This document shows positions 36,799 to 63,047 of a DNA stretch of 64,000 bases, one piece after another. The first letter of the stretch is position 1. The number at the start of each line of letters is the position of its first letter. Under the pieces are notes generated by a model that saw only the letters and a program-made list of their open reading frames with translations, had not been told where the DNA came from and made no database searches. The DNA comes from Alkalihalobacillus sp. AL-G (GTDB lineage: Bacteria; Bacillota; Bacilli; Bacillales; Fictibacillaceae), in assembly GCF_030643805.1 (NCBI RefSeq), contig NZ_CP094656.1, positions 3,038,001-3,102,000 on the forward strand, written 5' to 3'. The position numbers and the translations under genes are program-made.

Positions 36799-36837
36799 GA
36801 TAATTCTGCCACGTATGCGGATAATTCGGCCACGCAT
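36799..36837. repeat. Two tandem 21 bp repeats
   Basis: GATAATTCTGCCACGTATGC and GATAATTCGGCCACGCAT lie in tandem (36799-36819 and 36820-36837) in the gap between leuS and ytwF. No function is visible. Confidence 0.6.
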
Positions 36838-36905: not shown

Positions 36906-39323
36906 TTAATTTGCAACGATGTTCACTAATTTTCCAGGGACAGCAATCACTTTTCTGACTGTTTTCCCCTCAACGTTTTCTTTTACCTTGCCATCTGCTA
37001 GTGCGATTTCTTCGAGTTGATCTTTATTCGCATCAGCAGGCACGAGCAATTTTGCTTTAACTTTTCCATTGATCTGGACGACGATTTCCACTTCGTTTTC
37101 AGTAAGCTTGCTTTCATCGTAGATTGGCCATTCTGAATAAGTAACGGTATCTGCATGCCCAAGCTTTTCCCATAACTCTTCACTGATGTGTGGTGCAACT
37201 GGAGAAAGCAATTTCACAAAACCTTCCATCACCGATTTCGGTAATGCATCCTGCTTATAAGCATCATTGATGAACACCATCATTTGTGAGATGCCGACAT
37301 TGAATCGAAGCTCTGCGAAGTCTTCTGTCACTTTTTTAACCGTTTGATGATAGACTCGTTCAAAGCTTTCGGTCGCTTCTGTATCTTGAATCTTGCTAGC
37401 GAGTGATCCATCTTCTTCAACGAACAAACGCCAAACCCGATCAAGGAAACGACGAGAGCCATCTAATCCATTTTCAGACCATGCAATCGAGGCATCCAAC
37501 GGTCCCATGAACATTTCATATAGACGAAGCGTATCCGCACCATGACTTTTTACGATATCATCCGGGTTCACTACATTCCCTTTCGACTTACTCATCTTTT
37601 CATTGTTTTCACCGAGAATCATCCCTTGGTTGTAGAGTCGCTGAAATGGCTCCTTCGTCGGAACAACCCCTGCATCATATAAAACCTTATGCCAGAACCG
37701 GGCGTACAGCAGATGAAGTACCGCGTGTTCAGCCCCACCGATATAAAGATCGACCGGAAGCCAGTGCTTTAATTTTTCAGGAGCAGCCAATTGTTCCGTG
37801 TTGTCTGAATCGATGTAACGAAGATAATACCAGCAGCTACCTGCCCACTGTGGCATCGTATTCGTTTCACGGCGGCCTTTTTTCCCTGTTTCAGGATCGA
37901 CTACATTTACCCATCCTTCAGCATTCGCAAGCGGGGATTCGCCCGTACCAGAAGGCTTGATGTTGTCCATTTTAGGTAGGATTAATGGCAACTGGTCGTC
38001 TGGGACCGCACTCATCGTTCCATCTTCCCAATGAATGATCGGGATCGGTTCTCCCCAATAACGCTGACGGCTGAAGAGCCAGTCTCGAAGACGGTACGTA
38101 ACCTTCCGCTCGCCTTTTTTGTTTTCTTCAAGCCATCGGACCATCGCATCGATTGCTTCCGCTTTATTCATACCATTTAAGAAATCCGAGTTGACGATCT
38201 CTCCATCCTCTGTGTATGGGTCCTTGGAAACATCGCCGCCCTTGACCACTTCCACAATCGGAAGCTCGAATTTCGTTGCAAATTCGTAATCGCGCTCGTC
38301 ATGTGCTGGAACCGCCATGATCGCACCCGTTCCATAGCTCGCCAAGACGTAATCCGCTATCCAGATCGGAGCCTTTTTACCGTTAACTGGATTCACGGCA
38401 TACGCACCCGTGAAAACACCTGTCTTTTCCTTTGACAGCTCGGTACGCTCTAGATCACTTTTTGTTTCGATTTCTTTTTTATAAGCCTGAACCGCATCTT
38501 TTTGTCCGGAAGTTGTGATTTTGTCAACAAACGAGTGCTCTGGTGCAAGAACCATGTACGTTGCACCAAACAATGTATCTGGTCGTGTCGTAAAGACGGT
38601 AACTGTCTGATCATGATCTTCAATATCGAACATGATTTCAGCACCCTCTGAACGTCCAATCCAATTCCGCTGCATTTCCTTCAAGCTTTCCGGCCAATCC
38701 AGGTCTTCAAGATCCTCCAACAGACGGTCAGCATAAGCGGTGATTTTCAACATCCATTGTTTCATCGGCTTACGGATGACCGGGTGACCGCCGCGCTCAC
38801 TTTTCCCATCGATTACTTCTTCATTAGCGAGCACCGTTCCAAGAGCAGGACACCAATTCACCGGAACCTCATCGATATAAGCAAGACCTTTTTTATAAAG
38901 CTGTAAAAAGATCCATTGTGTCCACTTATAGTAGTTTGGATCAGTTGTGTTCACTTCTCGGTCCCAGTCATAGGAAAAACCAAGCTCTTGAATCTGACGG
39001 CGGAACGTATTGATATTTTGTTTGGTAAACTCGGCCGGATCATTCCCAGTATCCAACGCGTATTGCTCTGCCGGAAGTCCGAATGCGTCCCAACCAATTG
39101 GATGAAGCACATTATAACCCTGCATCCGCTTCATTCTTGCAACGATATCCGTAGCTGTATAACCTTCTGGATGCCCTACATGAAGGCCTGCTCCAGATGG
39201 ATACGGAAACATATCCAATGCGTAAAACTTCTTTTTGCCAGGTTCAAATTCAGTTTTGAATGTTTTATTTTCACTCCAATAATCTTGCCACTTCTTTTCA
39301 ATCTGCTTATGGTGAAAAGACAT
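36906..39323 (-). CDS. leuS: Leucyl-tRNA synthetase
   Basis: An 805-residue class Ia synthetase that charges tRNA-Leu. The HIGH box is HVGH at about residues 48-51 in [15 protein letters not shown], the KMSKS loop is KMSKSKGNV at about 575-583, and the editing domain lies between ([20 protein letters not shown]). Met at 39323 is chosen: GGAG is about eight bases upstream and [12 protein letters not shown] is the usual N-terminus. The T-box leader expected directly ahead lies instead at 41.1-41.4 kb, with an IS3-family element between. Confidence 0.97.
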
Positions 39324-39490
39324 AAACACCACTCCATTCTGATTAATTTAAGTATGGTTTTCTCTGTTATGGTTTAAATATGAATGCATCTTGTGATCCC
39401 GATTGCCAAAAAGCTGGATTAACTGCGAAATCGGCTGGGCCCCCTTATTTTGGACACATGCCCAGCCATTCTCCTTCTATCGTAGAATTT

Positions 39491-40414
39491 CTATAATTTC
39501 ACTTTTGTGCTCGGGATCTGCCCTCTTCGAGATAAGTCATAATACTTCTGAGGCGTGTGTGGCTTCAAGCTTCCGTGATAACGAGAATGGTTATAGAAAG
39601 CGATATATTGATCCACATAATAAAAGGCTTCTTCGTAAAATCCAAATGCATATCGGTCAAAACACTCTCTCTGTAACACACTGTGAAAGGACTCAATATA
39701 AGCATTCATGTCTGGTGTCTTCTTTGGAATTCGCTCATGATAGACCTTGTGATGGTCACAAAAGTTGCCAAAGTCTTCGCTCACAAACTGGGGTCCGTTA
39801 TCGGTTCGAAGAATCAGCTTCTTCTCAAATTCCCCAGATTTAAAGTGCACTTTCCGACGTATAAGTGCTTTTGTCAACATCGTTGTAATATGTTTCGCCT
39901 TACAAACCGATCCACAATAATAACCAACAATGGTTCGATCATAAACGTCAATCGCACTACACACGTAAAAGAAGGCGTTGGAATCCGTTATGTTTCCATA
40001 TTTGATGTCGACTTGCCAGAGTTGATTCGAGCCTGTAATCGTACGATTTCTCGCAAGTTTTCTTGGGTGTTTTGCTTTTTTTGTGTTCGGTTTTTTTAGA
40101 ATTCCTAGCCCTTTACACATCCGGTACACTTTATGCTTACTAATGATCAGGGAGTGGTGGTCTTTTAGATATAGGGTCCATTTTTTGTAGCCCATAGCTC
40201 CCAACCACTCGTCCCAATAAAGTTCCATCAGATATTCTGCGATTTGCGCATCCGGAATCTTTTCCCCTTGATTGGATACCGAGTAGCCCGGAATCGGCCG
40301 CCCTCTTTTTTTCACGTCCTCTTTGCCCCCTTGGCCTCGTAATAATAATAGAGTGACCTGGTGAAGTTGAAAGCCTCTGTCGCTTTGATCACAGAAAACC
40401 CTTCTTGCACCCAC
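39491..40414 (-). pseudogene. IS3-family transposase OrfB, 5' part frameshifted
   Basis: The main frame encodes the DDE core: QVDIKYGNI, then ILRTDNGPQFVSEDF, then PDMNAYIESFHSVL. The expected N-terminal part (LVQLEEIKMWVQEGFSVIKA, ending YYYYEAK) is in another frame and reaches a stop soon after. The two parts join if one G is restored to the G5 run at 40326-40330 (minus strand AAGGGGGC). Thus this copy probably cannot make a full OrfA-OrfB transposase. The GTG at 40414 is only a possible internal start. Confidence 0.75.
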
Positions 40415-40436
40415 ATTTTGATTTCTTCAAGCTGCA

Positions 40437-40751
40437 CTAGTATTGGGATTTGTTTTTTTTAAGAAGTTCCCTCAACATCGCTACTTCTAATTCTTTTTCG
40501 CCTAGTAGCTTCATGGCATGATCATATTTCTTTTCTAATTCTTTTCTGGATGTTTGTGGGGTTAAGGCCTCTGTTCCTTCAACTTCCATTTCATCTCGAA
40601 CCTCATCTTCATAGGTCCTCATCCACTTTCGGAGGGTCTCTGTGGAAATCCCCGCACCCTTTGCCGTGGAACTCATCTTATTGGTCTCGAGGGCCATCCG
40701 GACATATTGTTTTTTTACTTCCTCTAATACCTCAATTTTTTTCTTCGGCAT
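40437..40751 (-). CDS. IS3-family transposase OrfA
   Basis: A 104-residue helix-turn-helix protein (AKGAGISTETLRKWMRTYED) with a C-terminal coiled coil (LEKKYDHAMKLLGEKELEV). ATG 40751 follows GGAGGTGATTGG. An A8 run in the last codons (minus strand CTTAAAAAAAAC) is the likely -1 frameshift site into OrfB, giving KKKQIPILVQLEE across the junction. Confidence 0.85.
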   Translation of the reverse strand: MPKKKIEVLEEVKKQYVRMALETNKMSSTAKGAGISTETLRKWMRTYEDEVRDEMEVEGTEALTPQTSRKELEKKYDHAMKLLGEKELEVAMLRELLKKNKSQY

Positions 40752-40852
40752 AACCAATCACCTCCCCCAAGTAGCTAAAATAGCTTATTTTTAATATAAG
40801 GGAGAATGATTTTGGTGTCTAAATGATTTAGGGGGCCTAAAAGAAATCCGAT

Positions 40853-41095
40853 AATTAACTGCGAAATTTGAAAAAGAACTGCGAAAAATGAAAATTAACT
40901 GCGAATTCTTAGTCAATGCTAAGTGAGGACCGAAGGACCGAAGAAACGAGTTAACGCCGAAATTCGCAGCTAATCATTCGCCAACCTTTTAGGAAAGAGG
41001 AGCGAAGAAATCAAGGCGTCGCAGTTCCGAGGACCGGAGCTTAGTACAGCTAAGTGAGGACCGGAAGAACCAGAAAACGCTGAGATCTGAAGCTA
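40853..41095. repeat. Short repeats between the IS and the T-box leader
   Basis: Three near-copies of TTAACTGCGAA (40856, 40878 and 40894 regions) are followed by two copies of a longer unit containing GCTAAGTGAGGACCG and ending in GCTAATC (about 40918-40974 and 41049-41095), with CGAGGACCGGAGC between them. No reading frame. These resemble dispersed GAGGACCG-type repeats known to me from Bacillus intergenic regions. Confidence 0.6.
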
Positions 41096-41107
41096 ATCTT
41101 TTCTAAA

Positions 41108-41385
41108 AATATAAAAAACCTCCCGCCACTGATATAAACAAAACTCAGGGACGAGAGGTTGAATAAACGAACCTACCCGCGGTACCACCCGCATTAGCGC
41201 ATATTACATAAAAAATCGCGCTCACTCAAGCTCCTTATCGCGGAGATACGATAAATGCTACTCTTTCGTTCACATTTATGGCTCTGAGGCGAGTTCAAAT
41301 AGCTTTCGGGTTGGCTTTCACCGGTCGCCAACTCTCTTGTTCCGTTCACTACTTTACTAATCCTCTTCATTGCCTTTTAAATTTA
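41108..41385 (-). ncRNA. Leucine-responsive T-box leader (originally of leuS)
   Basis: On the minus strand the leader shows a Stem I with the specifier region GAACTCGCC, reading CTC (Leu), then the T-box antiterminator core GCGGGTGGTACCGCG, and a terminator AACCTCTCG...CGGGAGGTTTTTT (41117-41160). Uncharged tRNA-Leu would stabilise antitermination. Its cognate gene leuS starts at 39323, now separated by an IS and about 260 bp of repeats. Confidence 0.92.
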
Positions 41386-41402
41386 TAAAGATTTTAATTT
41401 GT

Positions 41403-41431
41403 ATTTTATGCACGTTCTCAACATTTGTCAA
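41403..41431 (-). promoter_or_regulatory. SigA promoter of the leucine T-box leader
   Basis: On the minus strand TTGACA (41431-41426) is 17 bp from TAAAAT (41408-41403), about 15-20 bp ahead of the leader. Confidence 0.8.
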
Positions 41432-49488: not shown

Positions 49489-49578
49489 CTCTTATTTTAC
49501 AGGTTAGCACCTTTTCGCCACAAGACGTCGGTTGCTGGGTTTCATCGGGCCTGTCCCTCCACCTACTCGGAATAAGAG
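49489..49578 (-). ncRNA. S-box (SAM-I) riboswitch of metK
   Basis: On the minus strand CTCTTATT (49578-49571) pairs with AATAAGAG (49496-49489) and encloses the hallmark sequence AGGTGGAGGGACAGGCCCGA followed by TGAAACCCAGCAACC. This is the SAM-binding core of the S-box. It precedes metK by about 395 nt. A poly-T site (GGCAGCCCTTTTTT) lies at about 49370-49385, but the terminator/antiterminator partners could not be resolved by eye. Confidence 0.95.
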
Positions 49579-62789: not shown

Positions 62790-63047
62790 TCCATTCCAAC
62801 TCCCTCATCAAACATCTCATAAACCGAAGAAAAGCGAAATCGTGATGGCAGCTGGCTGGCATATTGCTTGTCCGCAATGAAGCCCCTTTAGCTTTGCGAC
62901 GCCATTTTTCAATGGGTTTGCCTTTATCCTACGATTTATAAGATATCCCCTTTTTTCAGAATCTTATGTATATTATACTATTTATGACGAAATTTGTCAT
63001 CCCTTAGTTAGTATTTACTATGTTTTATTTCAAAAGAGGTGAATCGA

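Follow-up and report, generated by a model that had tools for sequence, protein, structure and literature searches.

An IS3-type element within a phased repeat array between leuS and its leucine T-box leader in Alkalihalobacillus sp. AL-G

The leuS locus and its leader

The window, that is the whole stretch of DNA analysed (64,000 nucleotides), comes from Alkalihalobacillus sp. AL-G, a species represented in the analysis by one genome. On its minus strand, a promoter, a T-box leader and a terminator are followed by about 267 bp of repeats, an insertion sequence (IS), 104 bp of spacer plus one AAAT copy, and leuS (Table 1). The initial annotation had described a promoter, a leucine (CTC) T-box and a terminator facing leuS with an IS in between, and all of these were present at correct coordinates. 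The IS, put there at roughly 1.4 kb, measures 1,412 bp, and the repeats, put at about 260 bp, measure about 267 bp. Near-identical copies of the element stand at five places in the genome, which rules out a chance pattern.

Table 1 Features of the leuS locus, in window coordinates
Feature	Position	Strand	Evidence or remark
leuS, leucine--tRNA ligase	36906..39323	-	TIGR00396, 1195.9 bits
leuS-proximal spacer remainder	39324..39427	-	holds CATACTTAAA block and ribosome-binding site
GGAGTG ribosome-binding site of leuS	39330..39335	-	
CATACTTAAA block, genus-conserved	39347..39356	-	directly ahead of the leuS ribosome-binding site
Array unit left of IS, attaactgcgaaat	39418..39431	+	in 20-bp register with right-hand units when IS is left out
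Target duplication AAAT, left copy	39428..39431		
IS3-type element, 1,412 bp, ends CGGCTGGGCCCCC / GGGGGCCTAAAAG	39432..40843	-	copies compared, duplication flanks
OrfB, rve integrase core, from first in-frame start	39491..40414	-	NF033516, rve
OrfA, HTH_Tnp_1-like	40437..40757	-	PF01527, 23.4 bits, just under cut-off 24.1
Promoter-like TAGACA-N17-TATATT inside IS end, 10/12	40793..40821	-	reads through OrfA and OrfB towards leuS
Target duplication AAAT, right copy	40844..40847		
20-bp-phased array, three AACTGCGAA units, right of IS	40844..40912	+	TRF 40857-40905, period 20
Long dispersed repeats from array to leader, with two GCTAAGTGAGGACCG... elements	40913..41110		repeat search of genome
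Leader terminator hairpin	41112..41159	-	fold z -3.0 for 41095-41185
T-box leader RF00230, Leu specifier CUC	41144..41379	-	122.1 bits vs gathering score 93, E 1.6e-26
Leader promoter TTGACA-N17-TAAAAT, 11/12 matches	41403..41431	-	promoter scan

The leader scored above the gathering score of the T-box family and has a specifier loop, GGGTGGTACCGCG and a terminator; the covariance-model alignment gives the specifier as GAA-CUC-GCC. The TTGACA of its promoter is kept in all eight aligned species. A T-box precedes leuS in all seven congeners (G001-G007) and a GGGTGGTACC T-box core was found upstream of leuS in 80/80 other Bacillaceae-type loci; thus, the T-box belongs to leuS. The CATACTTAAA block is exact in seven of the eight genus species, with one substitution in G004, and among the 80 other loci it is exact in none and within one mismatch in one. 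Elsewhere in the window, a SAM riboswitch (49489-49578) and a c-di-GMP-I riboswitch (62844-62932) were observed. Low-score Rfam matches to BSR0626 and U12 were taken as chance.

The distance from GGGTGGTACCGCG to the leuS ATG is 1,867 bp in the window and 451 bp when the IS and one duplication are left out (the empty site). In the seven congeners it is 451, 474, 487, 583, 633, 776 and 796 bp. These spacers are too short to hold the IS, they have no sense ORF longer than 62 aa, and no OrfB match at E<=1e-90 was found anywhere in the seven genomes. The core-to-gene distance in the 80 other loci ranges from 86 to 580 bp with a median of 119 (67 loci below 200, 8 at 200 to 262 and 5 at 318 to 580 bp). 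Of the 19 other T-boxes listed in the genome, 17 have their end no more than 160 bp from the next ORF on their strand (80 aa or longer), and the remaining two (L008 and L004) end 425 and 335 bp from theirs.

As the spacing is at least 451 bp in the congeners and in the empty site, leader and gene were apart when the IS arrived, and the insertion added to an already unusual spacer. The long, repeat-rich leuS spacer is genus-wide and older than the IS. The initial annotation, which took T-box leaders to sit normally directly ahead of their gene, had suggested checking whether related strains lack the IS and have the leader adjoining leuS. The IS was indeed absent from 7/7 congeners, but their leaders stand 451-796 bp from leuS and the empty site is likewise 451 bp long; an originally adjoining T-box was ruled out on these distances. 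It had also reasoned that the same spacing in a close relative lacking the IS would assign the T-box to another gene. The long spacing of the IS-free congeners agrees in part with that case, but it does not take the T-box away from leuS.

When the dispersed repeats and the array were used together as the query, 30 genome places were retrieved at E<=0.001, self included. Bacillaceae-1 RNA (RF01690) was detected in two of seven loci with dispersed-repeat members and in one congener leuS spacer, whereas the window's own repeats have no listed match to RF01690. This RNA was observed adjoining dispersed repeats akin to those of the leuS spacer at L029 (1569-1634), L042 (1385-1451) and L138 (1204-1270).

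The IS3-type element and transcription towards leuS

The clean AAAT target duplication bears out the earlier view of the IS as a later insertion. OrfB matched the IS3 model NF033516 with 168.8 bits (cut-off 160) and rve with 63.8 bits, and the HTH protein OrfA, with a match just below cut-off, lies in a frame other than that of OrfB. Members of the IS3 family produce target duplications of 3-5 bp and usually, though not universally, have 5'-TG...CA-3' ends. Duplications of 4 bp were found at 15/15 insertion sites of this element and its relatives, one of them with a mismatch; the IS ends were placed by reading the flanks. The ends are CGG...AAG, not TG...CA. Because TG...CA ends are missing, the element was filed as an atypical IS3 subgroup on the strength of its transposase.

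The five genome copies are near-identical and differ at 5 alignment columns; no further OrfB match at E<=1e-8 was found in this genome. OrfB of the leuS copy is split between two frames (window 39491-40432, L025), its N-terminal part being open in another frame. Three further copies are identical at this place and the fifth has a one-base length difference, while each of three translated relatives has a single long OrfB frame. The near identity of the copies suggests recent spread despite the split OrfB.

The transposase genes are now downstream of the leucine T-box. The IS is codirectional with leuS and no terminator-like site was listed from the leader to the gene; polymerase running past the T-box should therefore continue into leuS, so that T-box readthrough probably still serves the gene. 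The scan of the minus strand (39324-41110), which covered Rho-independent sites, listed no terminator; it also missed the leader's own terminator, so this is a weak negative result. The hairpin at the leuS-side IS end (z -1.1) is no more stable than in shuffled sequences and has no T run after it. The repeat-rich spacer (40849-41110 as RNA) gave a predicted fold with z -2.9, which could slow or stop polymerase.

Rewired control of leuS is possible, given the promoter-like site in the IS (Table 1) and the absence of a listed terminator before leuS. A stronger form, in which the IS uncoupled leuS so that a promoter in the IS or spacer mainly drives the gene and T-box control is lost or minor, is doubtful but is the most serious competitor. 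Two minus-strand sequences could act in this way, TAGACA-N17-TATATT (10/12; 40821-40793) and TTGAAG-N18-TATTAT (9/12; 39568-39539), and the repeat stretch and the IS end can each form hairpins. However, the eight promoter-like sites found on both strands compare with 4.2 +/- 1.9 in shuffles, the weak ones being near chance, and the leader, its promoter and its terminator are intact and alignable with those of the seven congeners.

Phased arrays and the insertion sites of the IS

The three AACTGCGAA units right of the IS and the unit to its left fall in one register when the IS is left out, with the 9-mer at positions 284, 304, 324 and 344 of the empty site. The register is kept across the IS and therefore the array predates it. 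The pair AACTGCGAA-N11-AACTGCGAA (two mismatches at most) was found at 53 places in the AL-G genome, at one in G001 and at none in the six other congeners; the reversed-pattern control gave one in the AL-G genome and 0-2 per congener. Manual grouping of these 53 places gave 29 arrays, of which 24 lack an IS. A decayed IS end as the source of the array was ruled out by these IS-free arrays and by the units in register across the empty site. Across the AACTGCGAA arrays the core is conserved and the linker variable. A coding origin of the period was also rejected as the main reading, because the period of this genome is 20 and core and linker evolve apart.

The gene context of 20 AL-G arrays, judged from ORFs of at least 70 aa, gave no firm rule. 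Three of them fall within short ORFs (74-99 aa); the other 17 are not in an ORF of that minimum length. Where both neighbours are codirectional (15 arrays), TTCGCAGTT is in the sense direction in 10 and in reverse in 5, as counted by eye. Downstream of leuS, two GATAATTCNGCCACG units stand 21 bp apart (36799-36834) and perhaps represent another array family.

When periods from 12 to 30 were compared, the best period was 20 or 21 in seven of the eight genus leuS spacers, including the empty site of AL-G; the exception was G004, and the values of G002 and G007 were each equalled by 1/200 shuffles. Six of the seven congener spacers thus show a 20/21-bp periodicity, with cores other than AACTGCGAA. 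The pair TTCCACAAG-N12-TTCCACAAG occurs at 87 places in G001, 101 in G006 and 17 in G003; the five remaining genomes have 1-2 places each. On contig C1 of G001, the listed TTCCACAAG arrays are by eye mostly on the plus strand in the first 1.35 Mb and all on the minus strand beyond 2.0 Mb, as if they followed the direction of replication or transcription.

The non-coding DNA of the 80 other leuS loci (131 kb) contains three-unit arrays with at least 9/10 matches eight times at period 21 (five loci) and once each at 39 and 40. The same DNA gave no three-unit array at any other period from 12 to 40, and shuffled sequence gave none. A looser scan, made with no ORF mask and read by eye, found 20/21-bp arrays in about 11/80 Bacillaceae-type leuS loci; runs of N and repeats inside or near the leuS coding sequence were set aside.

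The five AL-G copies of the IS have perfect 4-bp duplications (AAAT, AAAC, AATT, GAAA and CCAA). Each copy is no more than 34 bp from an array of the set of 29, while the zones within 50 bp of an array add up to 0.10% of the genome. The motif was taken from the leuS copy, so the independent test is 4/4 copies. At least ten relatives, with OrfB identities of 53-66%, were found in six other genomes (one each in G033, G300, G103, G160 and G424, and five copies in G422). All matches at the thresholds used were kept and none was dropped; at most five candidates per genome were scored in a sample of the order. The resulting 15 sites come from seven genomes only, two of which have five copies each.

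With the flanks of the relatives joined, the phase score at 20/21 bp was at least 9/10 in 5/10 and at least 7 in 7/10. Random windows of the 80 leuS loci reached 9 or more in 9/3,992 and 7 or more in 67/3,992, and 0/140 tiles from the distant flanks of these ten loci scored 8 or more, with one at 7. At control periods of 17/18 bp, no site of the 15 exceeded 5. Weak sites at 20/21 bp were L174 (5), L175 (6) and L179 (6), in which repeat motifs are visible by eye. The array cores vary between hosts and between the sites of G422 (for example, CTTGTTGCGA and TATCGGCGAA). From the 15 sites we infer that this IS3-family subgroup prefers phased arrays.

GCG stands directly beside the duplication at 9/15 sites and 49/60 duplicated bases are A or T, so that target choice probably includes some preference for a short sequence; the IS ends behind these counts were placed by reading the flanks, and in single-copy genomes the placing of the ends itself helped to bring out the duplications. 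These same counts would fit an IS with no taste for arrays, one that needs just a short motif, for example GCGAAWT, or that persists in intergenic repeats because it is tolerated there. We consider this unlikely, as array surroundings make up so little of the genome, yet hold 5/5 copies, and as relatives such as L172 and L173 lie in arrays with a core lacking GCG. In addition, a score of 8 or more was reached by a single one of the 710 window tiles, that on the leuS array, and by none of 731 tiles of 21 other AL-G loci.

The arrays might also be neutral slippage satellites in which an IS survives since nothing is broken there. Their apparently intergenic position and host-specific cores agree with this. 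However, slippage is expected to copy whole units of any length, whereas here the core is kept, the linker varies and a period of 20/21 bp recurs in unrelated cores, and survival alone cannot account for 5/5 copies in 0.10% of the genome. Such an origin is therefore improbable, to about the same degree as an IS indifferent to arrays.

Known systems and a model for the locus

According to sections of PMC1525189, the IS3-family elements IS1397, ISKpn1 and ISPsy8 insert into REP/PU palindromes, and a table of that paper places 5/5 copies of ISPsy8 in such repeats. The leuS IS resembles them as an IS3-family element with copies (here also 5/5) in short, dispersed, host-specific intergenic repeats. 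The targets differ: IS1397-type elements, as described in those sections, use palindromes, whereas the units here are direct repeats with one orientation per array and a 20/21-bp phase, with a core that varies from host to host and from site to site within one genome. Targeting of REP palindromes by IS3 elements is thus known, and what appears to set the present case apart, judged from the sites compared, is a phased direct-repeat array with a host-varying core. The IS1447 subgroup of IS3 (PMC6211511), likened here by description only, likewise comprises Firmicutes IS3-type elements with A-runs in the transposase frames; array targeting was not found in the available part of its description.

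A survey of prokaryotic satellites (PMC6749651) states, in the part available, that dispersed non-coding families of long repeats are rare, and names Leptospira and Methanocella. Like the present arrays, its non-coding satellites are tandem repeats spread in the genome and mostly species-specific, but phased 20/21-bp arrays with variable linkers in Bacillaceae were not found in that part. A literature search of titles and abstract openings found no description of such phased arrays. The Bacillaceae leuS T-box leaders (RF00230), as far as covered by the available text of PMC2494555, likewise have a Leu specifier and a terminator and stand ahead of leuS. The present group differs from them in its core-to-gene distance of 451-796 bp in the seven congeners, and of 1,867 bp in AL-G with the IS inside.

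That the T-box serves another gene, with leuS having its own adjacent promoter and leader, is highly improbable: the conserved CATACTTAAA block directly ahead of leuS would suit it, but the specifier is CUC (Leu), a T-box core precedes leuS in 80/80 other loci, the congener spacers have no sense ORF above 62 aa, and no minus-strand promoter-like site was listed in 39324-39431.

As a whole, the explanation that we favour, and hold to be likely from the sequence comparisons, is that an array-preferring IS3 subgroup inserted into an old array of the leuS spacer, and that leuS transcription comes from readthrough of the T-box, perhaps with a contribution from an IS promoter. In this explanation leuS is controlled by its own leucine T-box. 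In the genus, the stretch from the T-box core to leuS had by then grown to about 0.45-0.8 kb through dispersed repeats and an array phased every 20 or 21 bp, both of which are seen in the spacers. The IS entered the array just 3' of a GCG step of one unit and duplicated 4 bp, as the DNA shows. Polymerase that has cleared the T-box should transcribe OrfA and OrfB before leuS, so that the leader would be about 2 kb long. Some leuS transcription independent of the T-box may start at the IS promoter, and transposase transcription may in turn have come to respond to leucine through the T-box.

A broader proposal is more tentative, and we put it forward as possible rather than probable. Bacillaceae intergenic DNA may contain a widespread, so far undescribed element consisting of direct-repeat arrays in which a host- or site-specific core of about 10 bp recurs at a spacing of two helical turns (20/21 bp) and the linker varies. 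The IS3 subgroup would find these arrays by their architecture or by a bound protein and not by one sequence, and its insertion at leuS would also have put a transposase under a leucine T-box.

The leuS locus would offer a natural example of T-box action over a distance of about 2 kb, and of a transposase downstream of an amino-acid sensor. The IS group may serve as a marker of 20/21-bp-phased arrays, its insertions being usable to find them. Arrays with host-specific cores would also point to an unknown binding factor in Bacillaceae.
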